A stretch of DNA of 64,000 nucleotides from Eretmocerus hayati (Eukaryota > Arthropoda > Insecta > Hymenoptera > Aphelinidae): positions 33,806,714 through 33,870,713 of the forward strand of contig CM056743.1 in the NCBI GenBank assembly GCA_029851415.1, given 5' to 3'. The notes beneath the pieces are model-generated. The model saw only the letters and a list, made by a program, of their open reading frames with translations, made no database searches and was not told the origin of the DNA. Each line of letters opens with the position of its first letter. Position 1 is the first letter of the stretch. Of the stretch, positions 3,566 through 54,494 are shown piece by piece. A program made the translations under genes and the position numbers.

Positions 3566-3800
3566 ATATATGACCATGGAATCCACGGATTCCATGATCA
3601 TATATGTTCATGGAATCTTATATTCTACATGGGAACTCTCGAGAGAGCAAATGAGTGGAATAAAATTCCAAAAACAGCATTTTGAAGAACACGCCAAGAC
3701 GCGTCGAATGACCTAAGATACATATAGGTTTGTTCGAAAAATCGCAACGAGAATTCGATCAGAAGGTCTAAAGTGGCCACATTCACACCGGTTTACAGTA

Positions 3801-22994: not shown

Positions 22995-23189
22995 TTAGGT
23001 ACTAGTATTGATATTGTTTTGGCGTAATGCCACGTGTTCTTGTTATTATTTTGGTGTTCAACCAGTTGTTTTGTAGGTCTCTAGCCACGCCATACCTTCC
23101 AGTACAAGAGTCCAACTATGCGTTAAAAACTGTGTAGCAGTTGCGATCAAAATTCTCTGATTCAGATCGAAATTTGAACAATCCCGCAT

Positions 23190-26530: not shown

Positions 26531-26531
26531 A

Positions 26532-26592
26532 TATGGTATGAGCCTGATATGCATGGTATGAGCCTGAGATGCATGGTATGAGCCTGAAAAAA
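26532..26592 (+). repeat. Three tandem 20-bp units
   Basis: The unit ATGGTATGAGCCTGAGATGC occurs three times in a row starting near 26534, 26554 and 26574, with one or two differences. It is a recent short minisatellite. Confidence 0.9.
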
Positions 26593-26694
26593 ATTTCGTT
26601 GATATAACATACTGATTGGAATTGAGGACTTTCAAGTAATGTTGCGCATTGTGAAGTTCCTGGATCTCCAGTTAGTATCTGAAAATTTTGCCCA

Positions 26695-27130
26695 GTTGGC
26701 CAGCCCCAGCCCCATCCTCAGTCTTAGCCTCAGCTTTAGTCCCAGTCCATCCTCAGCACCAGCCTCGGACTCACGCCCCAGCCATGGATCCAGCCAAAGT
26801 CCCAGACACAGCCCCAACCCCAGTCCCAGCCTCAGCCTTAGCCACAGCCCCAGCCTCAGGCCCAGCCCTAGTCCAGACCCAGCTTTAGTCCCAGTCTCAG
26901 CCTTAGCAACAGTTCTCGCCCCAGCCTCAGCCTCGATCCAGCCCCGGTCCAGCTTCGTCCCCACGTCCCAGCCACGGCCCCAGCCAAAGTCCCAACCTCA
27001 GTCCCAGTCCTACCCTCAGCCTTAGCCACAGCCTTAGCCACAGACCCAGCCTCAGGGACAGCCGTAACTAGAGCCTTAGCGCAGCCTCGCCCCAGCTGCA
27101 GACCAGCTCACGCCACAGGCACAGCCACAG
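26695..27130. repeat. Hexamer repeat (AGCCCC/AGTCCC/AGCCTC)
   Basis: A 6-bp period dominated by CCCCAG/CCTCAG units produces artificial Ser/Pro-rich frames on the plus strand and Gly/Leu-rich frames on the minus strand. All are open only because the repeat lacks stop codons. No splice sites or flanking coding signal support a protein. Confidence 0.85.
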
Positions 27131-32159: not shown

Positions 32160-33600
32160 TTGAGGGTCAAAATCGGGTGATATGTAGAAAATCACTGAAA
32201 ATTTATGACCCAAGGTTTTGTGGGTCGCTGAAGACGAATCCGGTTCTGCATTCTATCCACTGTGACACAAACCTAAGATATCGACTACCACTTCAGTTAC
32301 GTGACGGAAATCTCGTTTTTTGACATCAAAATATGAAAAAAACACAACATTTTTCGTCCAAATATGTGTCGTTGGAAATTTTCAAGTAATTATAAAGGGG
32401 TCTCACAATGGAACGATTCAGTTCTTGACGATAATATGACTATCCCAATTCGCTGATCTGACAGACGACCTACTGACCAACTTACTTACTGACCAGATGT
32501 ATGATTCACCAACCCATCGATGTAGTGATGACCCGATGTGTGACCCACTGACCCACCAACCCCTTTATCTGCCACATGATCCATCATTCCATCGAACGGG
32601 TGACCTACACACCCAACTTCTTATCCATCACATGACCCATAACCCTGTTGGCCTGGTTACATTTCCAATGGCCCACAACCCGTCGACCGATCGGACGATC
32701 AACCAACCCATCGACTTATTTATCTGCCACATGACCCACTAACTCGTCAACTTGGTATCCCAGATGACTACTAAACCCTACGATCTTTCAACCTGTCACA
32801 GAACCCACCAACCTGCCGGATGACCTACTGATCTTCGACCAATTTACCTGTCATATGACCCACCTACCCGTAGGCCTAATGACGGATGACCAACAGCCCA
32901 CCGACCTACTGACCTGTCATATGAACCGCCAACTCAGCGACCTACTGATCCGACGCATGAATAACTCATCTACTGAGGTAAACTATATGACCTCATGACC
33001 CACCAGCTCGTGGACCTGATGACATTTGGGATGACCCATGCATGATAGTTGTTCTATGTACATGTTTCATCTTGAATTTATTGATCAATGAAAAACACCT
33101 GAGTGAGAAGTGAATTTCATGAAAGGCAGACTTCATCTCTTCTCATCCTTCAAGAGTTGTATTTATATCCTCTCACAGTGTGCTGACAGGGGTGAAGGTC
33201 TTGTTGCAGATTTGCAACTTGATATACATCAGGTTAGATGGTCGACCGATCATATGGCAGATCTGCAGAACGGTGGATTGTTCGGCAGGTCAATGTCGGG
33301 GAGTCATGAGGTCATATATCAAGTCAGTAATAAACTGGTTGGTCTCTTGGGTCATTCGAAATGTCACCAGGTCTACGAGTTGGTGACATTGGGGATCAGT
33401 TGGTTATCTGGCACGTCGGCGGGTTCTATGACAGGTCAGTATGTCAGTGGGTCAGCAGATTTTCCGATAGGTCGACGGTTTGGCGGGTCATATGATCGGT
33501 TAGTAAGTCAATTGGGTTGGTCACTACGTCGAAGGGTTATTGGATCATGTGTCAGAGTTCAGTAGGATGGTAGGTCATTCATCAGGTCGACAGTTTAGTG
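32160..33600. mobile_element. Foldback-type element, copy 1 (TGACC/GGTCA arrays)
   Basis: A ~290-bp unique head (32160-32450) is also present at 34730-35035; shared blocks include ATTTCGTTTTTTGAC and GATGACTATCCCAA. It is followed by a degenerate minisatellite of ~28-30 bp. Units read TGACCCACTGACC on the plus strand at ~32460-33010, then in the opposite sense, GGTCAGTxGGTC, at ~33185-33590. The two arrays form an imperfect inverted pair. No right terminus matching the left was found. The 151-codon open frame across 33110-33565 is an artefact of the repeat. Confidence 0.65.
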
Positions 33601-34729
33601 ATATCGGATTCGAAATTAACAACACAAAAAACGTTGGTATGATATAGTAAGAGCGATGGTTCAAAACATTGTTTTGGTGGAGTAGTGTAATTCATGAATG
33701 TCTCACTTGTTATGAAAATAACAGCTTTGTACTAATAACTACAATTTGCAATCCGACCATGGACGAATTTTACTCGATACGATCATGACGAAACAAAAGA
33801 AATGTGTGAACTGATTGATTCACACGGCTGGACTCGCTTTACACGAAAAAGCTGCCAAGGCAGAACATTTTCGTCCAACTCTGACACGGGAATTCTTTCG
33901 ATATTTACTCAGAAGAAATGACTCAGAATGAAAGTTTGATCAGTTTTTGTTCCGCGCATGCAATATAACTAAAAATAATCTTGACCCACATAAAAAAAGT
34001 CCTTACACATCCGCCAAGTCCAGAATTCTAGATTCCGGCTGTCTATGCATCCCATATCTAAAGCTGAGATGGATCAAATAAACTTTTCAAACGTCATTAT
34101 GCTGATAACGTGGATTCCAGTGATTCGATCAACATAGATATTCATGAATAAATTCAGGTATCTCGCTACCAATGAGTTTAATTTGAGTGAAATCCCTAAA
34201 TTTTCATTCAGAGCAAGTACCATGAATGGGTCCGAGTCAGGCATAAGTGTAACACTCGGTAACACTCGCTGATGTGCTAACTGAGAGTCAACGAGGTCAC
34301 GTCATGAATATTTTACTGCAAGTATTGTAAAGACACGACGTGCAAGTATTATACGGGTATCGCGACATTGCACCTGAAATTTGAATAAACCTTCTCAGAG
34401 TTTATATCAAAAAATGAGAGAATCAGCTATTTGCCTCATCTGACGTATCACAATGTAAAGAATAAAGTCAAGAACATCGGTACCCGATGCCCGCATGCCT
34501 GATACTTGCACTTATTTTCATGAATACCAAAACACGATTATCATGAATGCACGAGTCGTGTACCTGAATGCGATCACCCCGTTGACGAGCGTTTCTCACA
34601 CACATTTTTATTCATCAGCCAGTATGAGACCCTGGAATATTTGGGACGAGGAGCATCATTTAATAGCGCGAATATTAGTCAGTTTGCACCGATCTCCTTG
34701 TTTTTTTTTTTTTTGTTTTTTTTTTAGGT
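33601..34729. other. Spacer between foldback-type copies, no gene seen
   Basis: About 1.1 kb with no supported gene. A T-rich run broken by a single G lies near 34700-34726. Confidence 0.5.
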
Positions 34730-35718
34730 GTTGGAGGTCAAAATGTGGTGAAGGGTGGAAAGTTATTGCAGACCCATACATATGAAGTTGTTTGCTTCGC
34801 TGAGCACGAACGCGGTGCTATATTTATTTTATCTATACTGTTACACAAACCTGGGATGTCGATGACTATTATATAAATTTCATGATGGTAATTTCGTTTT
34901 TTGACTTCAAACTCTAGAAGCGCATGTAAATGTACGTCCAAACATTATGTTTTTGGGAATTTTGGAGTGATTTCTACAAGGTATTAACGGAACGGTTCAG
35001 TACTTGACGAGAAGATGACTATCCCAACTCACTGCCCTGCTTTAAAATTTCAATTAATTTTGTATTTAAATGGTAGTTGGAAATCCAAGAAACTTTTTAC
35101 AGTGTAGTAACCATCAGGTCAGTAGGTCAGTTTTATGACATGTCAGTAGACCTGTCACAGAACCCGCCGACATGCCAGATGCCTGACTAATCCCCCGACC
35201 TATTTATGTGACCCATGACCCACCAACTTGTAGACCTGGTGACGTTTCAGAAGGCTCATAGAGACACCAGCTTACTGACCTGATATATGACCTTATTACT
35301 CCCCGACCTTGTGATCTACCGTACTAACCACCGATCTGTTGACCTGTTATATGATCGTTGACGGGTCAGTGACTTACTTCAGCTGGTCGGTAAGTCATCC
35401 AGCAGGTCGGCGAGCCATATGACAGGTCAGTAGGACGGTAGGTCTATAGATTATCCAAAAGGTCACCGAGTCGATGAGTTAGTGGGTCATGTGTCAAATA
35501 AACACTTCAGTGGATCGGCAAGTCCTCGAGCTAGTCGGCGGGTACGCAGGACATATGACAGGTCAGTGGGTCGGTGGATCTATGTGCCACCAGCTCGAAG
35601 ATGATGGGTCATCTGGCAGATAAAGGGTTTGGCGGATTAGTAGGCCATACATCAGATCAGTAGGTCAGTGAGTCCGCAAGTCGTCTGGCAGTCCAGCGAG
35701 TTGGGATAGTCATCTCCT
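34730..35718. mobile_element. Foldback-type element, copy 2 (TGACC/GGTCA arrays)
   Basis: This repeats the head seen at 32160-32450 and then an inverted pair of TGACC-type (~35140-35360) and GGTCA-type (~35370-35690) arrays. Unlike copy 1, both ends of the array part are visible. GATGACTATCCCAACTCACT at ~35012 is mirrored by AGCGAGTTGGGATAGTCATC at ~35694-35713, so the array segment (~35012-35713) has terminal inverted repeats. No transposase frame. Confidence 0.7.
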
Positions 35719-35948
35719 CCTCAACAAGCTTGTGACCTCTAATATCGCCAGAAAACAAGGAGATCGGCGCAAATTCAAAAAGGATTTGGCATCTGCAACC
35801 AAAAAACGTAAAGATAACATATTGAGAGCTGACGTTGAAACAACTCTTTTGAGGGAATGTGTAATCTTTAGGTCCCCGATGTTTTTAGAATACAATTTAG
35901 AATACAATAATGTTCTTGAACTGATCGTAATGTCATTTTTGTAACTTA

Positions 35949-36737
35949 TACAGTACCGTGCAAAAATTCCTGAACGGGGGTATGAAATCCTCTCTTGCAA
36001 AAACGTCGATTGCTCGAGCCCAGATCAACGTAGAGGAATTTTGAAAAAAGCATCTTAAAGATGAGAAAAAATGCTAACTTTTTGTGGCCTTCGATTTTTC
36101 TTTCAGCCCTCTTTGGTACCTCAAATAGCTGATGTAATTTCAAGGATTTCGAGAAAAAAACCGTTTTTACTCTATCGGCTGTAATTTGGACGCGGATATA
36201 GATAGAACAATTTTGCAAAAAGCATCTTGAAGAGCGGAAAAAATGCCATTTGCAATGATTTTTCGATTATTTTTTACGTCGTGTGAATAAGAGTGTGAGA
36301 GCTCTCAAAGTAGCCAGATTCTCGGATTTTCGATGAAATACGTGTAAAAACGGCAAAAAACTACGGTTTTGGCTACTTTGAGAGCTCTCACACTCGTATT
36401 CATACGACGTAAAAAATAATCAAAAAATCATTGCAAATGGCATTTTTTCCGCTCTTCAAGATGCTTTTTGCAAAATTATTCTATCTTTATCCGCGTCCAA
36501 ATTACAGCCGATAGAGTGAAAACGGTTTTTTTCTCGAAATCCTTGAAATTACATCAGCTATTTGAGGTACCAAAAAGGGCTGAGAGAGAAATCGCAAACC
36601 ATAAAAAATTAGCATTTTTTCTCATCTTTAAGATGCTTTTTTCAAAATTCCTCTACGTTAATCTGGGCTCGAGCAATCGACGTTTTTGCAAGAGAGGATT
36701 TCAAACCCCCGTTCAGGAATTTTTGCACGGTACTGTA
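35949..36737. mobile_element. Tc1/mariner-type foldback MITE, ~785 bp near-perfect palindrome
   Basis: TA flanks both sides (35949-35950 and 36736-36737). The ends are CAGTACCGTGCAAAAATTCC and its exact inverse. Nearly the whole element folds back on itself with few mismatches; the centre lies near 36340. The two arms therefore encode almost identical 90-codon open frames in opposite directions, which are shadows of the palindrome and not genes. High arm identity implies a recent insertion or active arm homogenisation. A decayed relative lies at 21.96-22.58 kb. Confidence 0.88.
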
Positions 36738-38789
36738 TAATATCATCAAGACTTCTCCAAATCAGCCAATGAAATTTCGGTGAACTCAAGCCGTGGTTTT
36801 CATGCCAGTCAAACATAATCTTCAATGAGCAAACGTAGAAAAGTTTCATGGTTGGAATGGTAACAAAACCGACAAATGTCGTTTTCGTTCTCCAGGAATC
36901 GGATCGAAGTCATATTGGGATTATGCATGTGAATTAATAGTAGTTGAATGAGTGGCATGTTTATTTTTCATTTTTGAAAAATGAGTAGTGGCAAAGGATT
37001 CAAAATGAGTTCAATTTCACAATGAGTATGGATTCTCAGATGAAGACAAATTTTCCAGAATTCTTCTGATTTTTCTCACTTCTTGTATCGATAAGAAGGA
37101 CATTTTTTAAATTCAAACCCTGATTGACATGCCGTTCTATCCCAATCAAAAATCGATCATGAAATAGCCAATTTTTGAAGTAAATGAAGCAAAAGTTTTA
37201 CCAAGCAACGATTTCTTCTTTCCACACCCACCTTTCATTGCAAAATAGATGAAAGAAATTGTCAACAATACGATGCATTCTTCATTTCCATTGTCGAATG
37301 AATAGCAGACCGAATTACAAAAGTGGCATACAAGAATTCTCTATCTGACATATGTACCATTTTTCGCAGTGCACGAGGCAATGAATCGTTTTTGCACACT
37401 CGTTACACCAGAAAATACCGATGGTCCACGCCAAGGTTTGATGACAATGAAGTCTACTCTGAGCATTTGCGAAATTCTTTGCAGCTCTGCGCAGTGGGGA
37501 AGAAATTGAGGGGCTGCAAAAAAGGGGGGAAAGTTCATATACCTATATACCACCCCATGCAGAGGTGCATTTGAGTCTGCATAAGCATTTTATATATTAT
37601 ATAGGGCTAAAAGGGAGACAGATGCGCGACGCGTGCCGCTCCTTGTTCGGCTCGAGCGGGTGCGCGCGTGTCGAATCTTTTGGGCAGCGCATGAACATTG
37701 AGCAGAAATTATACTAAGGGGTGGATTGTATAGAGACGATAAACACCTTTCACGTATGTATAAAGATGCATCGGTATGGTACTGCAGGGGATGATGCTTT
37801 TAAGCTAGTAGGGGATGCTGGTAAATGCGCTCGAAAGTGCAAATGATGGTCAGGACTGTTCCGCATGCGGTGGAATGTTCAGGATAGCATTTTCTGATGC
37901 GTGTGATTGAATGAGCAGTTTTCTCGGAAAGCGCGTTTGCTTTCTTTATGGGATGATCCATACTGGGCTATGCAATCGAACAACCTAATTTGAAGTGGTT
38001 AGTTGGCGGAACGGGGCTTTTCTATCGATATTCTTACTGAAAAACATATTTTATCCTTCTATGGATTATTGTAATCTGTTGAAAAATCACCAGTGAGCGC
38101 GCAGACTCCAAATTCCCGGAATGATTGATCCTAGAATTTGACTGTTATTATTCATTTTGACATTATCTGTTGGTCTTCAAAGACTGTTTGTCAATTCAAA
38201 CAGTCTTGTACCTGAACCCTAATACATAAAGAGACCATTGCAAATTCGATTGTTCATATAATAAGACCAAGGAACATCGAATAAGCTTGCATCGGAAGAA
38301 ATGTTGCAATAATGCCCCTCGTGTCTTTCACCTTCAAATCTAAATGCCCCAATATTTACGAATCGTGGTTGCACAATCCTATACCATATGATACGCATTC
38401 CATTTACCCGAGATGAAGAGTGCCAATAAATTACGTCACCACCCTTCGCGCGCATTTCATCGCGTGCGTGATAACTGTACATATAAGTCGTGAAAGCAAA
38501 AAGTAGAACGACTCAAACTGTGCGAGGTATAGAAAGGATCGTACATACAAAGCTGGCCAGTATTATTATTACTTAGAAATGGCCCAATGCAGGAATCTCA
38601 GTCGCACCCCAAAGTTCACTACTGTTAAACCTTATGTCACTCTTTTTCGATCCCCCCTGATGCAATCCTCGCAAATTTCCACGGTAAGCTTGCAATGCGC
38701 TTGCGAGTCTGGTTTAATGCCACGAATTTTTTTTTTTTTTTTTAATACTTGTTTTTTCAATAATTTTGCTGTGGTGAAATCACGAGAAA
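36738..38789. other. Intergenic block, no gene seen
   Basis: No supported gene. A GC- and CpG-rich patch at ~37620-37700, preceded by TATATATTATATAGGG, could be a promoter, but no coding exon follows that I can recognise. A poly-T run lies near 38727. Confidence 0.5.
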
Positions 38790-39035
38790 AAAAGTTTTCC
38801 CTTCCACGGGGTATCCTAACATGGTTTTCCAACCTGAAATGGCTGTCTAAATACGGTTCCGTGGTCAATTTTAAGCTACCACATTAGAATTTTTTTCTAG
38901 AGGCAAGAAACTTGTTCTTTCGGAAATTTTTTGGCCTAGACAAAACCCCTATTGTGGTAGCTCAAAACTGACTATAGGACCGTATTCAAACGGTCATTTT
39001 TAATTCGGGAAACCATGTTTGAATTCCCCGGTATT
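38790..39035. repeat. Long imperfect inverted repeat
   Basis: The left arm around 38820-38885 (AACATGGTTTTCC, AAATGGCTGTCTAAATACGG, TTAAGCTACCACA) is inverted in the right arm around 38955-39027 (TGTGGTAGCTCAAAACTGAC, ACCGTATTCAAACGGTCATT, GGGAAACCATG). Arms are about 75 bp with a ~70-bp loop. It is probably the remnant of another foldback MITE. Confidence 0.65.
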
Positions 39036-40510
39036 CGAAAAAATTTGCGGCATCAAAACAAACTTTCAGCGGATACCGGACAATTTTCCCCCTAAAGTGT
39101 ATAACAAAATGAAGAAAATGCGACCTCGAACGCTGAAATTGGTCCAGCCTAGCCCGTTTTGCGATTATTTATCGAAAATTGATTGTGAAATTGAACTTTT
39201 CCTCAAGTACCAATAGATGGACTAATTAGCTCATCCAGCTTCACAGTTACATTGTAACGCTCTAAAACCACCAAGATCGTCTTCAGCTTAGTGCGTCATT
39301 TCTGATGATTCCGTCGTCCAGATTCTGCTCTTCTTCGATTGACTCGCAAGAATTATACATTATTGAAAAAAGAAGACGATTCAGCAAGAATGTTCATCAT
39401 ATTCATTTCTTCTGGTGCTTCGTCAAATTATGATAGCTACGGTAAAAAAATTCATGATTTAATTATGAATCGTGTGATGCTCTTGCCGCAAGCTATGTAC
39501 ATACATATATTCATTTGATAAATTTTTGAGAATGATTTTGACTCGCATTTTTTTTTATTTTCACCCAGATCATAATGCTGATCGTGACATTTTATATAGC
39601 CAGTTGAAATTTCGAAAGTACTCAATGAGTAATGATCGGGTCAACATATTTTGCCTACATAATATGCATGTATACCCACTTCCAGCTCTACACCTCGGTC
39701 AATTCGTGTGAAAAAAATCTAATAGACATACCGAATAAAATTTTTTTCCATCCCTACACAATTCTGAAAGACAATCCCCAAACCTGATTTATTTGCTTAG
39801 AATCAAATTTAATGTAGAAACCGTTACCTGTAACGGTCATCCATGCATTAGTTCATATTGTTTCAGTCAACATATCAATCAAACGGTTGCAATGCAACCA
39901 ATAGACTCGCAAACACACTCATTGTAAACTGCTACCGAATTTTCAAGTTACACGAGAGTAAAGGGTGAGTATGATGGTTGACGCACCCCCATCAAGTTCT
40001 CATACACACATACATATACTAACCAAGCGATAAATCACATTAGGCGTTCGCGGGAGAGCAATCGTGCACCATAATATAACTTCCATAGCAATGAAAAAGA
40101 AGAGACCGTTGCACCCGCTGAGACCAAAAATTCCGTTACACACATCCATGACGTATAATATTGCACCCCCAACTCTCGGACGAGCTTATATCTGTGAAAA
40201 CACCCCCCATCAACGTATATACAATACATCATATCGGGGTACATTATAGAACGTACGTTATATATTTTCGTCGAGCAAACATAATACATCGGTTCTGCTT
40301 GCAATAACGATAACTCCTATGCCTATACGTTATATTGTGTGTATAGGAATGCTTTACAAACAATCGCGGGAGTCGTTGAATACAAAAGGATCGTCGTGCA
40401 AGCACACAGTTGAGCCCAAAAAGTCGCAAATGATCGTTATACACTACATATACGCCTTGAAAAAAAAGATAGCGCGGTTGATTGTGCCACCACTTATATT
40501 ACGCAAAATC
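39036..40510. other. Intergenic block, no gene seen
   Basis: No supported gene; short overlapping open frames only. Confidence 0.5.
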
Positions 40511-41400
40511 CTGGAGCTTCATTAGGGTATGTTCATAGATGAATATGGTATGCTATGCCATATGGAATGTTTTAAGGGGGTCCTTTTTGCTGCTGTTGAA
40601 AATTCTGAAACTAGATCTCGATTTCAAAAAGAATGCGGAGAACTCCAAAATATTTTGGCACCCCAATGGAGCCTCAATTGCGATTTCGACGACAAAAAGG
40701 TCTCGAAAAAAAAGATAAATAACTTTCCATTACTCCAATTCAAAAATGTCACTTTCAAACGCGATTGTACAAAGTATTCGTTGAGAAAATTATTACTATC
40801 CGCTTGCAAGCCAATTTATAGGGCACTTGAGGACACGTATCTCGCATGGCAAACAAACTGTCCTCATGCCCGAAATTGGCTTGCTATCGCATCAGTGTAA
40901 TAATATTTTTTGCAGCTGTGCGCGCAAAGTTTTAAAAAAATGAGACGTCTCTTCATTATTTACAGTGCGAGAAGTAATGCTTGAATGACTTCTCGCACAT
41001 TTTTACATTTACGCACTGATGAAGTGTGCGTAAATGTAACTTCTCGCTCTAATGCATATTCATTCAGGCACAGTTCCAAAATTTGATGTCACGCCATCCC
41101 TCTGAATTTGGCCTTTCTTGGAAACTTCGTTTTCAAGATGATCTTGCTCGGACAGTGGTGCATTTAATTACAACTTCGCGCACAGTTGCAAAAAATAGTA
41201 TACGCAACTCGTGCGAGAAGTTTCCGCATTCGTTTGGCAACTTGTGCGGAAATTGATCTTCTCGCACTTAATGCGTAATATACTATTTTCGCATCTCAAA
41301 CACCCTAGAATCGCATTACTCGACGCGGCGCATTCATTAGTAAAAGTTATGAAAAGTTGTTTGTCATTTTTCATTGCAATTCAGACCACTTAGGGGAGCC
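40511..41400. mobile_element. Hairpin-rich element with repeated CTTCTCGCAC motifs
   Basis: Several nested palindromes occur close together. At 40800-40888 GCAAGCCAATTTATAGGGCA and TGAGGACA pair with their inverses. At ~40980-41046 ACATTTACGCAC pairs with GTGCGTAAATGT. At ~41180-41300 AAAATAGTAT, CGTGCGAGAAG and TTTCCGCA blocks pair with inverses. The core TTCTCGCAC or its inverse appears at least five times between 40965 and 41270. A 123-codon open frame (40529-40900) overlaps the first hairpin. Outer ends were not defined, so the type of element is open. Confidence 0.5.
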
Positions 41401-42084
41401 CAAATAACTCGAATTTTTCACTCAGAGTGAATATTCCCTCGGAAATAGGCTAAACACGCTCGGTGCGGTAATATACTATTATTTATGGACTTTTCTGATG
41501 TTTTGGTGTTCAAAAAATTGTAGAAAATACCATTTGCGCCCCGTTCGTGAAGTTCCCCGCTTCCGAACGATTATTTCAACCCTCGCCTTCGGCTCAGGCC
41601 GAAGACCAATCGCTCATAAGCGAGATACAACCTCATAAACTCGATGCAAAACCTACTATTCTCCAAGACTTATTACGTAGAAATTATTTCTGCCGAAAGT
41701 GTAATTTTCGCATTTTTCTTATTCTTAGATATTTACACGATCTTATTGTTTCATCCAAAGTATGTATAATAGAAAGTAAAACTCGTACATACTTCCGAAA
41801 TATATGTCATTTAGAATCCAGGATTGGTATACCGTGTCATTACCCAAAGTTGAATCCACCCTGAAAACCTCAGCGTTCTCCAGGACGAGCATCAGATACA
41901 ATCAACGCGCGCACCTTCCACACCCAAATCAAAGCCCCGCCCAGCCCTTAAAAATCATGAGTGGGGGAAAGTCCAATCATCTCCCATGGGCGTGGTCTCC
42001 TATAAGTCAACCCCTACCATACCATAAACTCTTGCAGTGCACCTTGAATGAATAAACGCAATCATCAGGACGCGTAAACGCAGA

Positions 42085-42330
42085 TTGCTCCATGCATGCA
42101 TGCACCATACAATACGCTTTTTGATCAAAGAAAAGAAGTGGGGTGGGGGATTGAGCGTCGCGTGCCTTCGATCGGGTGTGGTGGTGGTGGCGTCCCCAAG
42201 CGCCAGCCACCAAAAGGGCCCAACTCACACCGCGGCGTCAGTCAGTCTGCGTAAAGCTGCAGAAGTGGCAGGGTTGTATAAAACGCGTGGCCCTCGGAGA
42301 GACAGACGCCAAACAGCCCTAAAGTACATT
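42085..42330 (+). promoter_or_regulatory. Candidate promoter with TATA box
   Basis: A GC-richer patch in an otherwise AT-rich region carries TATAAAA at 42277-42283 within GGGTTGTATAAAACGCG. TCAGT-like Inr elements are upstream of it rather than downstream. The first AT-rich, ORF-poor stretch that could be its transcript begins soon afterwards and ends at a poly-A signal near 47.42 kb. Only the TATA match and the composition are seen; use as a promoter is inference. Confidence 0.3.
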
Positions 42331-45300
42331 ACATCGTCGAGGGTGGAATATAGGCATTATAATAGTCATGGACTATTGGAGACTCTCGGAGGGTCACGCT
42401 AGGAGTAAAGGACACCCCTGTCTAGACAGGATCTTATTTAATATCTCGTCCTTACCTGGAGGTTGATGGACCTTCAAAATTCATCATCTATAAGGATGAG
42501 GATGGACCTGGCTGTTGTAAATACTGTAAATAATTTGGATAATATGGTGAATGTATACTACGATGCCGCCGAGCTTGCTGGGATTGCATTTATTATCATC
42601 GATCCCACTGGCAGATTGAAGAAACCCCTTTTATTCTTGGATAAGTGGAGGAATACAAGGAGCTGGTGACTGTTATGTAGACATGGAATATATTCAGTGA
42701 TCCTGGATAATGAAACGATCCAGATGAGAATTGACACCTTATGCTGATTACTGAATTGAATTTGAGAGGCACGAGTTATCTTCCCATGGTTTACCGGTGA
42801 GTTGTATTTTTTGTTATATATAGACGTTATCAACTTGTGTCAACCGAAATTTTTCACATTTGTTTTACTGAGTGGAAAAGATATATGGTACTATTTGGAC
42901 ATGGTGACATTTGGGATCGCAGATATTAGATGAATCTCGAGATAAATCGTGTTACTATTTACACGAATCATAAATTCAATAATCCAAGTTATTGGTGAGA
43001 TTGTAATAGTAAGCGTTGAAATTTGTTGAATTTTAGTTATTTTTCTGAAATTTTCGAGGTCCAGACATTCTTGAACTTATATCACGTCAAGTTGCAATAA
43101 TCGAATCATGAAGTTCAGATCACATGCACTAGCATCAATCACTCATCAGTGAGGAAAAAGATCGCTATATAGCTGCAACAACAATGAGCAATTCACAACA
43201 ATGAGTATTCGGTTCTTGCAATCACCTTTATTATTCTGATTAAAAAAAAAAAAAAAAAAATACCTGTTAGAGTGCTTTAAAAAATCAGTAGACCAACTAT
43301 TTTCATTTGCAATGAGATTCTAGACGAAGGTAATAGTGAACCTCCTCAATTTTTCATTTTCATTATCGGTCATGGATATGATCACATTCTATAAATAATC
43401 CATCAATCAGTGCCAGCAAATATTACCTATATTGACACCCATCGCTTACACAATTCACCGTCTATAGCTATAACGAACGCAAATTAAAGGCAAAACAGTA
43501 ATGATTATGAAAGCATTGTCAAAATAAGCCTCTGAAAGATTTATAGATGTCAATCTCTCTGTGTTAAAATTATGAAACTGAGACAAATTCCAATGATCAT
43601 GCATTGAAACGTTTTTCAAACATATTTGGATCGATGCATGGATAATCTCGAGTTCATGTGACCGCAGATTCCAAAAACTTCTGCCTTGATTTTCATAGAG
43701 CGTCAAACTACTCTAATTTCAGAGACGTGTCATATCATACGCTCAATAAGAACTAGCGCAAAATTGGCTGTTTCACACATGGGTAGTTTTGTCGAGTCCT
43801 CGATTGACGAGAAAATCTTATTGATATTTGTACAATAGTAACAGTACACATTTGTGATATTAGATTCGAATAATCTATACCACATTATTTAATTTAAAAA
43901 AAAAACACCACCATCTATTGACATTTGACGGTATGAAAAAAAAATTTTGAAAGATTCATACAGTACGTTAACTTCTGTTGCCCATAATCAATTTAGATAC
44001 TCGGGCTATTCTACATCCATGAAAATAATTTGTTTGTTCAATGGGGGGTGAAATTGCATGTTCTAATTCTTCTTTAATCATGAAATTTCACATTAAGATG
44101 ATATCTTTATCTACCAAAATTTGTCCAACAGGAAAAACGTACCATCGCGTACGATTTTGCCAGCAATTGTCTCTGAACTTTTGAGACATTATCATCTATA
44201 GTATACGGCAAGAAGAGGTCTTCTGTCATCAACCTTCATCAGCCTCGCTCTACTGCTTCCAGTACCTATGCCCAAAAATTGTATTCGGTAAAATTTGGAT
44301 CTTCTTATTAAAATTTCAATCTGACAATGAACCGAAAATAGATTCATAATACAGTTCAACAGCTTCAAAAAAATTCAAAGATCAATGTCAACGGCACCGA
44401 AACTCTATTAAAAGGTGGTTTGCTCAAATTCACGAACTATCATAATTAAAGAGAGACTGATTATTATTGAAGTAAGCATAATAATCGATGCTGAAATAAG
44501 TATGGGTAAGATTGAACAGTAACTTGGTTATACTTATGAAACACAAAACATATCATTAATCATTATTTAAGTTAAAAAATGGACAAATGGAGAGAGATTA
44601 ACCAGAACAATTGAATAATAGTTATTATCATACTCATCTAGTCATGATGTCTAAGTCAAATTTTTTTAGCTTCTCACAGCATTCCGTAAGGAGTCTAGTC
44701 AAACTCAAAAATAATCTATCTAGTCTTCAAATAGTCAATGTAAGCTGTTTAATATAACGATTAATCAATCGAAAAATAGTCACATTCGCGTACAAAACTT
44801 ATCAAAGAGGCCATTTCTAGTCTTATAAAATCTAAGATTGAATAAATCTAGTCGATTGATCATATATAAATACGTATCATTTGATAAATGAATATTAAAC
44901 TAGATTTGTTTGTGAGAGGTGGACTAATATATTCTACATACGAGATCTAAACTCGATGAGATATGTTACGAAATCTCAGCCTACATTCCCAAAGTGCGCC
45001 CAACGTACAAAAATAGTCTTAGGACTCTAATCAGTCAGAAAAATCCTAGTCATAATTTTAGTTACATCCTTAATCAAAGATATATCATCTAGTCATTGCT
45101 TCTTGTCATAGTGATTTTCTAGTCAGAAAATTTTCCATGTTTCATGATGCACTCATACATAATAATGTATCATTTTACATCGATTTTTAATTCAATTTTA
45201 AAGCATTTTTTATTCAAATGCAAAAGCAGGCCACTTCATATCTGCAATTAAATTTTCATTAACGTCTTCTGCAAAGCAAGCAAAACAATCAAAATTACTT

Positions 45301-45942
45301 TTAGTTTCAAATTTATAACTGTGATGAGAATGAAAGAAAAAAAAATTTGAGAATAAGAAGTGTAAAAAACCAATCGCTCAATATTAAACTTACAAATTTT
45401 TCTCATTTCTATTTGAATTTTAATTTTGACATTTCTATACTAGCTGACACTGCCCGTGAATATGCTGCCATACAGAATACGAACCAAAAATAAGGGTATA
45501 TTAGAATGTAGGTTCGTCATTGATCTCGTATATTTTTAAAAGAGCCACAGTATTATTAAGAATATAAGTTGTAACAAATTTATGTCATTATTAGGGTATA
45601 TTATTAATATTTGAAAAATTTTGGGACCGAGCCAGTGAATTTTTCTAGTTTTATTTTAAGCTGGGTACAAAATTCACTTAAAGTATGATTTACTGAATAC
45701 AATAAGAATCACAATTTCGAACACAATAGCAACTCTTAGATCAAAGCAAAAAATGATCAACTGGACAATCAACATACATAACTATTAATTGGATACCTAA
45801 TTCCACAATAAATCGAAATATCTGACATAAAATCATCGTACTTTGAGGTGAGTTTTCAATAAAAAACCAAGTGCCTGTGCAGTATGACATAATACTGACT
45901 TAATTCACTTAAACTCTTTAAGCATGCTTATGATCTATATAT

Positions 45943-45967
45943 TTTTTTTTTTTTTTTTTTTTTTTTT
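45943..45967. repeat. Poly-T tract
   Basis: A run of about 25 T. On the minus strand the sequence next to it reads as ATTGGGCATTTATT running into poly-A, which could be the 3' end of a retroposon. No clear target-site duplication was seen. Confidence 0.6.
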
Positions 45968-46594
45968 AATAAATGCCCAATCTGGCGGCTGAATCCAGTT
46001 TGTGAGAATAGAAAAAATACAACTAGAATCTAGTCAATAAGATCTAAAACCATGTCGTTTTTTATCAAATATTAATCCAGTACGTCTTTTACTTATACAT
46101 AGATGTATGAGTGAAAGATTTCGAACCATAGACATATTCTCAGATTCCAAACCAATCGTCTTTCCTAAAAATTTTCTAATAATTATTAGAAACTTAAGTT
46201 ATGTTAGTTTAGTTGTATTATGCTGATTTGTACATTAGACAAAAAAGTGAGTTTTGATGTAAATCAAGTTCGATATAAGATCGAAGCATTTGAGCAAACC
46301 ACCAAACAAAGACCTCCATTATGTATTGTAAATATTTGCAGATTTTGTATAAGTTGCGTAACTATCAAGTAGGTCAATTAGTATTTACCAATTGTCGATT
46401 TTGTTCTAAAAGATTTTTGAGTATAAAGGATATCTAGTCATTATATATCACATTGAAATCATAGATCATAATGTGTGGATGACAATAAACCGGTTAACCG
46501 AAATAATGATTCAATCAAATTTAGTTAGAGGTATTCATTAGAGGAAATATTGAAACTCAACTAATGTATAAATTTATTCAAATATAATGTAGAA

Positions 46595-46609
46595 GAGTGT
46601 CATCTAGTC
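46595..46609 (+). promoter_or_regulatory. Extended miR-279 target site
   Basis: GAGTGT, then CA, then TCTAGTC. Besides the seed match, GAGTGT is complementary to nucleotides 12-17 of miR-279 (ACACUC in the recalled sequence), and the A before TCTAGTC pairs with nucleotide 9. This is the classic seed plus 3'-supplementary arrangement with a small central loop. Confidence 0.55.
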
Positions 46610-47420
46610 TCAGAGCTCATGGATAAAAACTCGAAAAGCTATAGTCTATTAATGATAATATTTATCAAGTGAAATCAATTTTCACATTTATGAGTTTGTG
46701 TAAAGAATTTTCTAATTTCGGTTGGACAGCTTAGTACAGTAAACCGATCTCAATCCATGAGCAAACAACCTAGTCGCTAATAATTTATTGTTAATATTCT
46801 ACTCATAGAAATACATGCAGTTGACCACGGCGCCACATAATTTATATAGGACCTCGCTTCGTGAAAGAATTCTGCATATACATTTTCGACGTAAAAATAT
46901 GATTACGGTTTATAATTAATTTAGTGTAACTTGTAAACTAATCCGTGGCACAATTCTATTATGTAAAAGGTTATGAAATTATATAAAAATTTTCTTTTAG
47001 AATAGTAACTTTGTATACGTTAGCTTAGTATTTGATTCATGATTATTTGGTATGATTACTCAATATTTACGTGAGATAACATATTTCGATTGTATGAATT
47101 CAACTTAGATTTCTATTGAACACTTAAGAAAAAAATCATTTAATATATTCTATACGTGTATGAGGATACATATAATCTGTAACTTTTATACAATCTTTCG
47201 AGAATTATTTATGTGTGTTTCGTGTGGTTTTCATAAATTTTGTATCATGTGTGTTTAAATTTATTTTATATTATCGTTTCTCTAGGAATGAAAAAAAAAA
47301 AAATTAAAAATCTGTATCCAATGGTTAAGATTATCAGAACAGAAGGAATCACGGCCATAAATGAAATAGCGCAAATAAATCTGGAAATTTGGATTCCCAT
47401 TTTGATGTTCAATCTCGAAT

Positions 47421-47426
47421 AATAAA
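47421..47426 (+). terminator. Polyadenylation signal AATAAA
   Basis: A canonical hexamer at the right edge of the AT-rich ORF-poor block, with another AATAAA near 47506. It would end a plus-strand transcript at about 47.44 kb. Confidence 0.4.
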
Positions 47427-47450
47427 GGATTCAAAGCCAGATTTATAGAG

Positions 47451-49219
47451 TCTCTTTATTTGGATTCTAGACCCATTCTGGAATTTTCCTTTACCATAAA
47501 TAAACTCATAATTGCTATTGACTCTGCATGTAACACTCCATCTATGATATACTCAATCCGCTTTTTGCATGCAATTAATGAGTAATGATCGAGTGATGTG
47601 CATTTCAAGACATCAAAATAAAAAGATACCATAGTTTTTAAGCCTTCAAACTATTGATCGGGAACGGAAAAATGACCAGAGAATTCTGAACTATTCCTCC
47701 AACCATTTTTTCTTTGATTGATGTTGGTATTATAGAAATAGTGAAACAAATTTTTGCAGCTTCGTGATATCATCAATTTTTGTATATATATTGCGATGGA
47801 CCCTACTAATGATGTCCAATTTCGCCTCTGACTAACTGATATTATTTGTTCGAAAAGAATTCTCAATAGCATTCTATTGATGTAGCTATTTTATTTGACG
47901 AAATCATTACCGAAGGTTTTGAAAAAGATCACACTTCTCGCTTTTCTAGTAATCGTGCATTTCAATTCAACCAAAATACGCGAAAGCCCATCGGTTCATG
48001 GTTGTCAAGATGGTTTTTTTCTTTTTTATTACGATAGAAGAACAAAATTTGCTCTTCTCATTCAAATCTTAGTCTATTTTTCGGATTCCATATCGGCATC
48101 TGAATAATTTGGAACAGATCTTCAACCTGAGCTTCTAACTTCTCAAAGCACGTTTCATTTGAAGTTTTGTTATACAATTTCGGCAATACATTCATGATCA
48201 ATGATGAACGATTCGTTCTCCGATCCAAAGATGACTAATTTGAAAAGTTTCCAAAAATTGACGGGTCAATGGTCTGCCTGGAAAAAGACAGCTTTTAAAA
48301 TCTAAAGAGACATTTTTCTTGGCTCATTTTCAAACTCTTTAGTGGGATCTATGTAGAGAATTCGGAAAACTATCTCATTCTGGGATTTTCCTTAAATCAT
48401 TATTTTCTGCATAAAATAATGTGAAAATCGCTTTTGACGTTCAATTTTTCGAGATTATTTTCTGTCGCTATACGGTTCCAATAATAAATGTATAATTTCG
48501 AATGGTTTTTGTGTCACGAGCATCTCGTACATAATTGAATTCAATTTTTAGTCATAGTTTAGCGAGCAATTTTATTTTCATGCCTCAAATGATATTTGAT
48601 CGTCTTATCTGGACAAATAATAATTGCGGACAGCGGCATCAATTACACCGTGTAAATTAAGGAAAACTTATGTCTACATACTTTCAATACCCCCAACCCG
48701 TACGCACTAAATTCTCTCTACGAGATCGCTTACTGTAACTCGGGTGTGAAGGATCGTAAGGCAACGTTTAAAAAAAGGATTTTAGAGATCTTGAGAAGAG
48801 GTACACCGCAAGGATTTTCACGCTAGCATGACTTGCATATAAATGGAGGGTGATTGAATGAAATCAGAGTTTTTCCAATTTTGAGTGTCAATTAAAGGCT
48901 TGAAATTTCGATCAGAAAAAATTTTGAAGCGCATAATTTGATAGATTTTTATCTCATTTTTCAAGTGCTTTTTGGAAAATTGGTGTAAACCCAAACGCGT
49001 TGGAGTGATAACTGTTTTAGTGAAGGTATCCTTGTTCCATTTTGCTTTCTCAAAAGAGAAAGCATTCATTTGGTGCCGGCAGAATTTTCGTCAAATTTTT
49101 TCTAAAAAAATTTTTTTCTGCTCCAGTGAACCTCTTGAATACATGAAATTGGTACAGTCCTCTTCCTTTCGCCAAGATCTATCGAATGTAGGTCACAGTT
49201 TTTCGTTATAACCCCTCAC
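47451..49219. other. Intergenic block, no gene seen
   Basis: No supported gene. Only short open frames and no clear repeats. Confidence 0.5.
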
Positions 49220-50345
49220 AAAATTACTACAACCCCGTCTTTCGAGCCCTCTGTCCGTGTCTGTGTGTGTGTATGTATGTATGTTGTTTTCTATCGCTCA
49301 GCAAAACTCCTCACTGGTTTGATAGATCGTCCTGAAATTTTTATGCCATGTTCGGAGGCGTCTCTAGATGGGAATGCTAGATTTTGAGTGCCCCGCGATG
49401 ATTACTTTTATACTTATGAATTTTTTTTCATTTATGTATAATTTTTTTTCATCTTAAAAACTAAAAATATTCTCTCCTTCCTACTCAAAAAATCTGAGGC
49501 TGTTGATTTACGCGTTTCTCGACGTTCTTAATCGATTGGTTAATACGGAATTTCGATTGAAGCTCATTTTATTATATCTTTTACACACCTCTCTTTCGTT
49601 GGGCTATAAAACCTTTCTAATCACAATTTAACAAAATTCCGTATCAGCCAATCGATTCAGCACATCGAAAAACTTCTAAATTACTTCCTTTACATTTTTT
49701 TTATGTAATAAAATGAAATACAAATCATTTATAAGATTTGCTTCTTTCCGAAAAATTCCAAATTTCTCATTAAAAAATTCAAAAGTCAAAAAATATTCAT
49801 GCGATCATGCTCAAAATTCACTGGCATCATCATCACAGTCTTTAAAATACACCTACAAAGTCTCAAAAGATTTTGTCAAATCGATCTCGAAATTTTGCGT
49901 TCCAAATGATACATTTTTATTCCAATCTTCACGTTCACCGACAGTTAATTGCTTCCTTTCCTAACATAATCACCTGTTTACCAAAATTCTTTATCAACGA
50001 ATCGATCCAGCACGCCGAAAAATATCTAAAGTACTTCCTTGACATTTTTTTCATATAGTCAAATATTGTATCATTTATAAGATTTGCTTCCTTCCGAAAA
50101 ATTTCGAATTTCTCATTAAAAAATTCAACAGTCAAAAAATATTCATGCGATCATGCTCAAAATTCACTGGCATCATCGTCACAGTCTTTAAAATACACCT
50201 ACAAAGTCTCAAAAGATTTTGTCAAATCGATCTCGAAATTTTGCGTTCCAAATGATACATTTTTATCCCAATTTCCACGTTCACCGACAGTTAATTGCTT
50301 TCTTTCCTAACATAATCACCTGTTTACCAAAATTCTGTATCAATC
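49220..50345. repeat. ~347-bp tandem repeat downstream of a GT microsatellite
   Basis: A (GT)n/(GTAT)n tract near 49258-49285 is followed by tandem units. The anchor CAAAATTCCGTATCAGCCAA and variants start near 49632, 49982 and 50328 (spacing 350 and 346). The block ATTCATGCGATCATGCTCAA is almost identical in the units near 49796 and 50140. High identity between the last two full units suggests recent duplication. Open frames inside the units are repeats of each other, not genes. Confidence 0.8.
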
Positions 50346-50483
50346 AATCAATTCCCCGCGTTAATGAAAATCAATAAAGACCTTTACGTTATTATCACTC
50401 TGTTCCACCTACTGCAAATTGAAATTTACACTCCATAATTTATTCTTCAAATAACTAATTTGTAGAAAAATACTCAATTTTAC

Positions 50484-50825
50484 TTGATTTTCTTCAAACC
50501 GATTCATTCCCTTTTCAATGTATACGAGTCATATTCATCAGACCATAAACCTGTTAACATAGTTAAATGTCAAACACAGGATGATGAATTAGAGCAAGAT
50601 AGTAAAGAACAAAACATTGAGGAGGATATTGTGGATTTGATTGATGTTGAAGATGAAGATCAAAGATAAATGAAGGATCATGGATGTTTACCAATTGATA
50701 TTACAGAAAGTCAGTATAAAGAAATTCGAAAAAATATCTCATGTTCTGGATCATGGTTAGGAGACGTTTTGATATTTTGGATGAATAAATATTTTAATAA
50801 AAATTTCATGAGGAGAATTGATTAA
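50484..50825 (+). pseudogene. Broken ORF pair of unknown origin
   Basis: A 61-codon frame ends in an acidic stretch (IEEDIVDLIDVEDEDQR) at a TAA (50667-50669). The same frame reopens at once with an ATG and runs 51 more codons (through GSWLGDVLIFWMNKYF) to a TAA at 50825. Two in-phase halves separated by a single stop look like a small decayed coding region or the end of a lost gene. I do not recognise a family, and AT-rich chance openness cannot be excluded. No upstream splice partner was identified. Confidence 0.25.
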
Positions 50826-51229
50826 TGTAACATATTAATGTATTTGAATTTTCGAGTGAATAATGAGATTAGTTGACTTCTTCTATGGCAATGAGAAAGC
50901 ATTCTGCTAAATTCTTTTAGCAGCGTATTTTCTGTAGGGTACTGTATACATGAGCAGGAAAATAAAATCACATATTACATTATTCTAACTCGTTCTAAAA
51001 AAAATTTCTCCACGAGTTTTATGATATTTTATCATTCTTCATGCAAAAATGAATGAAAAAAATCGGCATATGCTTTTCAACTTATTCTGAATTGAGAACA
51101 TAATTATGCTTTCTGTGTAAATTTCTATGTTACCGACCGAGCACCCGAAATTTCACAAATTCACACACACAATAAAATGCCTTCGATGCACGTGCACGAC
51201 CAATAGCTCATTTAGTGTAATCAGTGCAT

Positions 51230-52638
51230 ATTTCCTATATAATGTTATTATTGGCGTTGAATGTTGAAAGTTGCATGTGCGCGAAACTTGTTTACGCGAT
51301 CGAGTACGAAAGAACATCATTCATCGTATGTTAGTGCTATATCTCTCTCTGGAAAGCCCTGATTCCGTGTAATATCGGAGTATCGGAGTCGTTGTTGGAG
51401 ACTCATCAGTCATCACATAACTCATCCAGATTGAATTGATATCTCACGGGAATATATTACAAACTACAGCTCTTATCGTGCACGTGAATAAAAGAACGAA
51501 GACAAAATCATCATCAAGCGACCCTCGCAGAAACATATCAGACAAAGACGGAGAAAGTCACGATGAGCGCGCGCTGAGTTTGCAATATACATACTTTACG
51601 CAGTGTGTAGTGTACTCAATCTAAACAGAAGATACATACCTACAGTGCCAGATGCAAGATAAATAAGCGTACAGAAAAGAGACGCATTAGAATCAAAGTA
51701 AATTTGCTGAATAAAGACAGCAAATAAACGTGGGTGCGCGTGTGCGTAAATATTATATTGCGCGAATCTGTATATAGCGCCAGTAAATTCTAACCCCTCC
51801 CTCCCTCGAGTGTAGTCGAGTGTATACTATCATCCAATCTCTGACTCCCGGAGTAACATCGTCTCCTTGACAAGGAGTTCAAACTCAAGAGCTGGCACCT
51901 GGGACGGATTCTTCATCGTCGAGGAAGCAAAGGTTCACGAGCTCGCGAAGTGTCTCGCACGGCTCGAAGTGTAATTATCGTAAAAACAAGGACGACATAA
52001 CCTAGAAGCTCGAGGTTGACCTGCTTCTGCCTCCTTCTGCACCGTCAGACGATATAAGCAGCGTCATCGAGTTATTTTAATGAACTCATAAGCCGTCCAC
52101 GTCTTGTTACTTAGTTTGCAAGTGATAACTTCAGTGCAACTTGGATGGTGATGTGATTTTAATGAGAGATGAAGCATGTGATGAGTTTGTTTTGAGTGTC
52201 ATTGTTATTGACTTGAGGATAGACTGAAAATCTCATAAATGGTGCCGTTAAAATATCCTCATCGTCTAAATAGAGTAAATGGGAGGTATGCTTGACTAAA
52301 GCAGACAATGAAAACCTCGTCAACTCAAGCCTTGTTCGACAGTGCCAGAGTTGTGTATACAGCCTGCCTTGAAGATTTTGTGTACCCAGTACTATAATTA
52401 CAATGTTACACTTTGATACAGTGTTATATCTGTACACTTTTTGCATAAAACAATATAATCTAAATTGATTCATGAAGAGAACAAGAAATCTCCTTCTGGA
52501 TCACTTGCAGTATGATCCTGTTATGGAACAGTTTTCTCCTGTGAAGTGCTGAATCTGTCAGTTCACATATTGACTTTTAAAAACTTTTGGTTCTTGATAT
52601 TATGCTGTTATTGCTCAACGCAATAGAAATACTCCCCA
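51230..52638 (+). promoter_or_regulatory. INO80D: Probable 5' region of INO80D
   Basis: This is the ~1.4-kb plus-strand stretch before the INO80D coding exon. It has a TATATAA-like sequence at ~51236 and GC-richer, CpG-containing sequence to ~52050, as expected of promoter or 5' UTR. A possible splice acceptor, CAACGCAATAG, ends at 52626, just before the coding exon. I did not find here the N-terminal Cys/His finger that vertebrate INO80D carries. It may be on an exon further upstream, or absent. Boundaries are approximate. Confidence 0.35.
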
Positions 52639-54494
52639 ATGAAGGTCCTCAGCTCGAAATACCCCAGTATGGACAACAAATCTAAGTTTTCAGATCGTTT
52701 CAAAGCTCTGTTAAATACTGATACTCACAAAGGTATTGATCCATATGTGTTTAGTGACAATGATCAGCCAACTGTTGCATCAACAGGTGGTAAAAATATT
52801 CAGTTGATAGCTCCAAAAAATTCAAAAACACCAAGCATTAATAGACCCAAATCTAAAGGAAAATGCCTAAAAACAGCAGCAAGAATCAAATCAGAAACGA
52901 ACCCATACACAGCAATAAAAGAAGAGATAAAACCAGAAGTTTTTAATCTAAACAACCAACTTCAAAAACCCTACCAGTATGCTCCCAAATTGAAACACAG
53001 ATACCTCAAAAAATTGCAACGTATCAAAGGAAAAAGTAAAAATAGGGACCACACTTTGCAATATTATCCTCGGGCTGGTGATGAGGTATCGGACAGTGAA
53101 TCTAGTGGAGATGAAGTGGAGGTATTTCAAAGACATTGGTACACAGGAGAACCAGATTCGACATCAGCCAGATCAAGTCGATTAGCTCAACTGCATTCTC
53201 AGCTACAGAGGCAACTGCAGCAGTTACAATTTGTTGATGGAGACATGCATAGTTCTTTGAAGAAGAAAACACTCTATCTTGTTGAGGCAGCAGCACGAGA
53301 TCCAACTGCCACAGCTCGGATTTTGAATGGTGGTACTGTATCTAATAAAATTATCGATGGTCCGCTCATTGTTGGAGGACCTTGTGGGGTTAAAGGTTGT
53401 CAGCAGATATCTTTACCATGTACCAGACACTGTTCACAGCACATTATGTTGAACACTGATCAACTGTTATTTGAGCACTGCACAGCCAAATTCAGTGACA
53501 ATACCCAATGTTGCATACCAGTGTTTGATGTGGCACATGAACTACCTCTTTGTCCAGAGCATGCAAGGAAAAGAGATAATTACCACAGAAGGGCCCAAGA
53601 ATCAAAACCAAAGAAGGCTCGGAGTAAGAAACCAGTTTCTCCAACAATAGTAGCAAGTGCGTGTGCTACTACCTCAACATCTTCAACAGTGCCAACGGCA
53701 ACTACTGCAAAACCTAGCAAATCCAAATCAAGGCCCAAAAAGAGGAAAAGGCCACCATCAATAAGTAAAATGGATATTCCAGCAATACCAGTGGTTCCTA
53801 ATATTATTTCACCAATAAATGTCGCTCTTCCTCCAGCTGTGACAACAGCTCTTGTACCAGAAGAAAATCATTTTTCAACTCCCATTATTCTGCCCGAAGA
53901 AATTGACTCTAAAACTTTGAATCACTTGAACGAAGCCCAACAAAATTGCAACTCCATACCAAATTTGAATGCTCTAGGCTTGGACATAGCCTCTATAGGC
54001 CTAGGACCTGGTATAAAAGTAGAGTTGGATGATCATGAAATATTAGCATCCTTGGATCATGCCACTGAATTTGAGAATGTTCTCAATAATTTGCCTGCTG
54101 ATGCTTTCAACGATTTATTCATTGGTAACTACAAAATCAATCTTTTTGAAATCACTATTGTGAAGAATTTATGTTTTTTTTTTTTGTAAAGACTTTCATC
54201 AATGTGCTATGATAGCTTGTCACTTGTGCAATCTAATTATGATAGATACTTATGTTATGTATTCTTTTGTCATACAGACTGTGTCTTGCAAAATAATGAT
54301 TCTTCTTCATTGTCATCCTTACACTATATTTGTTTACAGAAGGTAGAAATGGTGATTATGAACCAACTATCGAAGATGAAGAGGAATTGGAGAGAGCGGT
54401 TGAAGCATTTGACAAAGTAGAACGTTTAGGCCAAACTCATGGACTTCTTGAACCTGCACTCCTTGCTCAACTCATGGGTGATATAGTGTCGTAA
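52639..54494 (+). CDS. INO80D: INO80 complex subunit D-like, two coding exons
   Basis: Nuclear subunit of the INO80 chromatin-remodelling complex, which slides nucleosomes in transcription, replication and repair. Exon 52639-54124, intron 54125-54339 (GTAACT...TTTACAG), exon 54340-54494; 546 aa from the first Met. The diagnostic part is a C3HC3H-type zinc-finger module at residues ~249-308 (Cys249, Cys254, Cys265, His268, Cys281, Cys291, Cys305, His308; motifs LPCTRHCSQH and LCPEHARKRDN). It matches vertebrate INO80D better than KANSL2, as do the SARSSRLAQL segment before it and the spliced junction FIEGRNGDYEP. Basic, likely nuclear-localising stretches lie at ~320-330 and ~357-372. Reading through the intron gives a false 516-aa end. 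The start is uncertain: translation may come from upstream exons through the acceptor at 52626, and the first finger of the vertebrate protein is missing here. AATAAA lies at ~54782. Confidence 0.88.

Follow-up and report, generated by a model that had tools for sequence, protein, structure and literature searches.

A one-strand cluster of miR-279 seed sites in the parasitoid wasp Eretmocerus hayati as a candidate microRNA docking array

In Eretmocerus hayati, a chalcidoid parasitoid wasp used as a biocontrol agent against whiteflies and sequenced to 692.1 Mb in four chromosomes (PMC10482854), we analysed a stretch of 64,000 nucleotides, hereafter the window (C3:33806714-33870713 of the 692.13 Mb assembly), in which an AT-rich block carries twelve seed matches to the microRNA miR-279, all on the plus strand. 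In the reading we prefer, to which we give a probability of about 50%, this block would form an untranslated exon in an RNA read from the plus strand and bear a miR-279 docking array. Four features argue for selection on the block at the RNA level: the strand bias, a signal confined to the seed match, agreement with a microRNA that the genome itself encodes, and the lack of repeat structure. A decoy (sponge) role of such an RNA is possible.

The miR-279 site array and its cognate microRNA

The plus strand at 44637-46775 holds twelve copies of the core CTAGTC (starts at 44638, 44695, 44720, 44817, 44848, 45046, 45089, 45119, 46030, 46434, 46604 and 46770), ten of which extend to TCTAGTC, seven to ATCTAGTC and six to the octamer TCTAGTCA, so that the array consists of eleven sites of at least 7 nt and one hexamer core. 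The minus-strand core GACTAG does not occur in 44600-46800 (0 copies), and the GC content of the block is 27-30%. The individual features are listed below.

44600..46800, plus strand: AT-rich block carrying the array; its sole genome match is itself
44637..44644, plus strand: miR-279 8-mer site TCTAGTCA
44694..44701, plus strand: miR-279 8-mer site TCTAGTCA
44719..44725, plus strand: miR-279 7-mer-m8 site TCTAGTC, 25 nt from the preceding core
44816..44822, plus strand: miR-279 7-mer-m8 site TCTAGTC
44847..44853, plus strand: miR-279 7-mer-m8 site TCTAGTC, 31 nt from the preceding core
45046..45052, plus strand: miR-279 7-mer-A1 site CTAGTCA, preceded by C
45088..45095, plus strand: miR-279 8-mer site TCTAGTCA
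45118..45125, plus strand: miR-279 8-mer site TCTAGTCA, 30 nt from the preceding core
46029..46036, plus strand: miR-279 8-mer site TCTAGTCA
46433..46440, plus strand: miR-279 8-mer site TCTAGTCA
46590..46609, plus strand: miR-279 7-mer-m8 site TCTAGTC (46603-46609) with possible extra 3' pairing, a lead only
46770..46775, plus strand: 6-mer core CTAGTC within CCTAGTCG

The expected number of CTAGTC cores on one strand of this stretch was 0.33 under a first-order model, 0.77-0.85 under second-order models trained on the block itself, and 0.245 at the rate found in 258 kb of other sequence from the same genome (15 stretches at round coordinates, five adjoining 10-kb stretches, and the window outside 42-48 kb), where the biggest same-strand CTAGTC cluster within 2.14 kb had 4 copies. 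Sites for one microRNA family are accordingly in excess on one strand only (12 versus 0, with 0.25-0.85 expected). Under a Poisson model, which is an approximation only, the probability of at least 12 cores was 7.8e-17 at a rate of 0.245 and 1.4e-10 at 0.85, and correction for all starts on both strands of 692 Mb brought these values to 1e-7 and 0.19, respectively. The initial annotation of this DNA had described a dense, strand-specific cluster of 12 cores (10 TCTAGTC, 6 octamers) with about 0.3 expected and no reverse complement in the stretch, and our recount reproduced its numbers and places, bearing out that observation as a whole. Counts over the whole window were weakly raised, with 21 CTAGTC on both strands against 16.6 expected (17 of 100 shuffles reached 21) and six TCTAGTCA against 1.99 (3 of 100 shuffles reached 6); the signal is one of clustering and strand rather than of whole-window counts.

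TCTAGTC was also the most enriched 7-mer in 42300-47500, and when 55 insect seeds were scored over that interval, miR-279 alone was enriched (10 sites versus 0.38 expected, P = 1.2e-11), the second-ranked seed reaching P = 0.07. We further surveyed 264 kb of sampled DNA, including the window, for 2.2-kb clusters of at least six copies of a 7-mer (those with fewer than three different letters were dropped), and TCTAGTC was the most significant among the 7-mers with a mean flank identity below 0.40; other clusters with low flank identity included TGACCCA and ACAAGGC, the two that were inspected, as well as GTGCGTA (L027) and AGCAGCA (L018), the last with a score close behind.

A pattern search for the miR-279 3p arm identified seven places in the genome, and the three that were run against Rfam proved to be three distinct mir-279 hairpins, all above the gathering cut-off, one at C3:13.79 Mb and two at C3:151.42 Mb. 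The latter two (C3:151419647 and 151419824) lie 177 bases apart and differ in their 3' halves. Because the arms of these hairpins start with TGACTAGAT, the octamer TCTAGTCA is a perfect miR-279 8-mer site, and the cognate microRNA is encoded in the same genome. The earlier attribution of the sites to the miR-279/996/286 seed holds for miR-279, the member of the family that was sought. When the 12 sites were aligned, each of the seven TCTAGTC columns carried 1.1-2.9 bits and every other column at most 0.53 bits. Mean identity of the flanks was 0.31 compared with 0.29 at random places, none of the 66 pairs reached 0.6, and the spacing was irregular (25 to 911 nt), with three adjacent pairs 25-31 nt apart, a distance that favours joint binding.

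Candidate transcript and coding potential

The plus-strand RNA would perhaps start near a TATA box at 42277 and end near 47.4-47.6 kb. miR-279-loaded Argonaute would dock at several of its sites simultaneously, and the RNA would then be subject to strong silencing or, given enough copies relative to miR-279, would serve as a decoy that lowers the free microRNA. We infer transcription, exon structure and Argonaute binding at the block. The following signals are compatible, weakly, with such a transcription unit.

42277..42283, plus strand: TATAAAA, candidate promoter at a local GC peak (51.7% in 42000-42399)
42797..42802, plus strand: GTGAGT, candidate splice donor (home-made score 10.1)
47374..47622, plus strand: four AATAAA (47374, 47421, 47499, 47617), candidate 3' end

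The best candidate acceptors by the home-made score were at 44680 and 44263.

No closed stop-to-stop frame of at least 100 codons was present in 42403-52158, and the longest ATG frame of the block had 50 codons, compared with an average of 50.5 in shuffles; for the plus strand of 44703-46800, coding potential was judged by frame length alone. Pfam scans accepted no domain in the three plus frames of 301-15002, 15001-29702 and 30001-44702 (leaving a gap of 298 bases at 29703-30000) or in the three minus frames of 36001-50702, and their only row was a sub-threshold Secapin match. These results agree with the initial annotation, which had seen no coding region in the block and no zinc-finger exons upstream. 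Two short frames follow the TATA box, of 32 codons (42368-42466) and 67 codons (42466-42669). The longer one was rejected as a conserved peptide, as a word-based search returned no protein sharing three words with it and its length was shuffle-like (P = 0.44). A tal/mille-pattes peptide gene, considered on account of one DPTG motif, was likewise dropped, since the adjoining residues mismatch the motif of that gene. An Rfam scan of the window gave 0 matches, and among the best 12 rows of a home-made hairpin scan no microRNA precursor was convincing by eye. As for inverted repeats that might flank a circularised exon, the 25 of 47 pairs listed were poly-A/poly-T or weak.

Upstream, we read 50 kb before the window by eye (frames of at least 90 codons), and the nearest gene-like plus-strand frame was trypsin-like (L014, 252 codons, about 15.1 kb before the window and ending about 14 kb before it). 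Farther out, between about 44 and 29 kb upstream of the window, long frames (L011-L013) resembled a Polinton-type mobile element, again by eye. Downstream, INO80D lies on the same strand 5.9 kb from the block; its coding starts at 52639 and has its own, GC-richer 5' region (40-44% at 51.2-52.4 kb). An Eretmocerus hayati protein shares 95% identity with the frame at 52627-54189, and the two differ by one 19-residue gap and at the C-terminus, both of which are probably predicted introns. Other features in this part of the window include a 346-base tandem repeat at 49627-50349 (about 2 copies, 90% matches), where GC skew is about -0.4 and the plus strand C-rich, and a minus-strand frame at 61532-62149 that matches Pfam PPPI_inhib (PPP1R36-like).

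The octamer elsewhere in the genome and competing explanations

A genome search, which leaves out simple repeats and highly frequent words, returned one match for the block, itself, and likewise only itself for the 42.2-43.2 kb stretch. A ranking of the block against the rest of the genome rests on tight triples of CTAGTC, which miss looser-spaced clusters. With a repeat filter, triples matched 47 times, at 35 loci of which the block is one, against 30 matches for the reversed pattern. Sites were counted in four of the other loci (L032, L033, L035, L036) and in the block, while the remainder were classed by eye from the matched letters, most of them as arrays or dispersed families. Per 2.14 kb, L032 had 6 sites, L035 5 and L036 5, and L032 and L036 have look-alikes in the list. 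Among seven loci counted, the block is the only one that combines more than 5 sites with unlike flanks. The array in L032 (4922-5036) consists of five copies of 26-30 bases around TCTAGTCA, has a look-alike at C4:108947442-108947561 and adjoins a long retroelement-like frame.

One of the 35 loci (L033, C2:188497000-188505000, minus strand) also counts in favour of a docking array, as all 12 of its 12 same-strand cores are the full TCTAGTCA, 9 of them within 2.14 kb, and blastn at 1e-3 gave no match between it and the window. One CTAGTC lies on its opposite strand. It contains internal duplications of about 240 bases, and four aligned units were identical at 71 of 202 columns, the longest fully conserved run being CAATCTAGTCATTT, an internal hint of site conservation, although a second site is lost in two units. 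Neither its three minus frames nor the corresponding frames of the 8 kb upstream yielded a Pfam domain; its plus strand holds a 337-codon frame. That at least two linear non-coding RNAs (C3:33.85 Mb, and C2:188.50 Mb on the minus strand), mutually dissimilar, were independently shaped as miR-279 decoys is a bolder proposal and distinctly unlikely.

Several results weigh against the docking-array reading. At the harshest rate of 0.85, a cluster like this of a single chosen hexamer could still arise by chance somewhere in the genome. The sites were no more accessible than composition-matched places (0.118 versus 0.161, P = 0.78) or than all places, and mean duplex energies were near those of random flanks (-13.3 to -13.6 versus -12.7 to -13.2; sd about 2.5). 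The highest-scoring candidate donor (11.3, at 45848) and five AATAAA (44841, 45807, 45858, 45968, 46484) lie within the block, an arrangement that does not favour one continuous exon. The octamer is present in numerous arrays across the genome that are minisatellite-like or belong to mobile elements, which shows that clusters of this kind need no microRNA role to form. Unfiltered, tight CTAGTC triples numbered 208 genome-wide against 677 for the reversed pattern, so that tight triples alone mean little, and among about 100 of the 208 listed, most were by eye dispersed arrays with units like CTAGTCACTTATAGCTTTTATATACACT. Unlike flanks are shared by L001 (3 sites), L002 (4 sites), L035 and L036, none of which has a flank pair at 0.6 or above.

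Within the docking-array reading, a non-coding, decoy-like RNA, itself less likely than not, is tentatively and slightly favoured over a silenced 3' untranslated region (3' UTR), which we consider somewhat unlikely. Of the earlier interpretation as an endogenous sponge, the seed, the strand and the statement that no coding region is visible stood up, and the sponge role is no more than possible. The 3' UTR alternative, to which the same grade applies, holds that the block is a 3' UTR, or an extension of one, of a plus-strand coding gene silenced by miR-279 in the manner of Drosophila nerfin-1 or escargot, with no decoy role and with a coding part that is short, Pfam-free or beyond the window. 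An AT-rich block without a long frame and with all sites on one strand would suit it, as would the 32- and 67-codon frames after the TATA box, and repression is reported for nine Drosophila 3' UTR sensors in which miR-279 sites are conserved (PMC4456407). On the other side stand the plus-frame Pfam scans with their single sub-threshold row, the shuffle-like length and missing homologue of the 67-codon frame, and the distance of about 14 kb between the window and the end of the trypsin-like frame.

It is unlikely, in our estimate, that the block is an old minisatellite or mobile-element remnant with drifted flanks. Dispersed CTAGTCACTT... arrays at many places and the 35 loci that pass the filtered triple search would speak for such an origin, as would diverged arrays elsewhere in the window (16.4-17.5 and 32.4-33.6 kb) in which, as in the block, one-mismatch copies are not clearly in surplus. 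In the block, exact copies numbered 10 against 0.39 expected and one-mismatch copies 6 against 5.4, with CCTAGTC accounting for two of these. Three known arrays used as controls also showed no clear one-mismatch surplus (7 versus 6.1, 19 versus 17.5, 6 versus 2.8), since each array also supplies the model against which it is tested. This outcome weakens the argument against a decayed repeat and is a further point against our preferred reading; per exact copy there are 0.6 one-mismatch copies in the block and 1.0-1.5 in the control arrays, a small difference, in the expected direction. Neither flanks common to the copies nor a multi-copy block was found, and the irregular spacing and unrelated flanks described above do not suit a repeat. 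A decayed repeat was therefore set aside as the leading reading on the single genome match, the column-confined signal, the unlike flanks and the absence of CTAGTCACTT from the window, the one-mismatch control being weak. The initial annotation had held that equally dense octamers in unrelated repeats would undercut its proposal, and many dense arrays were indeed found, but the block differs from them in its flanks and its single match. Of the diverged arrays within the window, the one at 32400-33600 has a TGACCCA core and a second half resembling an inverted arm, and the one at 16400-17500 is palindromic, with GGTACTAGTAC-like units; both CTAGTC and GACTAG occur in it. Outside the window, C1:83921605-83931193 exemplifies the dispersed minisatellite-like arrays, with CTAGTCACTTATAGCTTTTATATACACT-like units that contain the miR-279 octamer and are possibly parts of mobile elements.

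We regard as less probable again that the sites cluster by chance, or that the block is intronic, as it might be in an INO80D transcript from a distal promoter, with seed matches that play no part. INO80D lies downstream on the same strand, donor-like sites are present at 42797 and 45848, and the second-order block model leaves a genome-wide expectation of 0.19 for such a hexamer cluster. However, the enriched 7-mer is the match to a conserved microRNA seed, a coincidence of about 0.3% given 55 seeds among 16384 7-mers, and the INO80D coding start has the GC-richer 5' region noted above. That the RNA is a trigger of target-directed microRNA degradation (TDMD), with the site at 46603 active and the others as auxiliary docking sites, is very improbable: this site could pair with positions 2-9, 12-17 and 19-22 of the L008 miR-279 paralogue (-22.3 kcal/mol) and known triggers, among them the Drosophila long non-coding RNA marge, pair more extensively than usual sites (PMC10899785), but its nominal P of 0.006 (0.03-0.04 for the other two paralogues) is not significant after 36 site-microRNA tests, which would yield about 0.2 such sites by chance, and the remaining 11 sites had no comparable pairing.

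Comparison with known microRNA-binding RNAs

Few natural RNAs are known to carry a dozen sites for a single microRNA family, and the extent of sponge action beyond CDR1as and miR-7 is disputed. No description of a comparable locus was found in the literature searched on miR-279 and on long non-coding RNA sponges in Nasonia, as judged mostly by titles and the beginnings of abstracts. In Drosophila, miR-279 acts in neural fate and rhythm (PMC4456407), and in bees and ants it acts in behavioural transitions (PMC11683303). If the two-locus proposal were true, decoys at two loci would buffer a microRNA governing insect neural fate and behaviour. A decoy with a single locus of origin could be tested directly, by measurement or deletion.

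Like the mammalian circular RNA CDR1as/ciRS-7, the block, an apparently non-coding stretch, has many seed sites of a single microRNA family, all on one strand; it differs in number, with 12 sites against more than 70 miR-7 seed sites reported there (PMC10899785). For CDR1as, circularity, expression and conservation are known, and no sequence kinship with the block is implied. The TDMD triggers Cyrano, marge and the Ago1 3' UTR (PMC10899785) are untranslated or non-coding stretches that bind one microRNA, as the block would, and the block has one site with candidate extended pairing; in contrast to its array of seed sites, these triggers act through one highly complementary site. Closer in microRNA family are the Drosophila 3' UTRs of nerfin-1, escargot, unpaired and STAT, reported targets of miR-279/996 (PMC4456407), where repression runs through sites of the same seed family; they belong to known coding genes, whereas no coding gene could be attached to the block. 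An artificial Drosophila miR-279/996 sponge, with 20 sites in a DsRed2 3' UTR (PMC12064045), is also a multi-site array for the same family, and the 12 natural sites of the block are of the same order.

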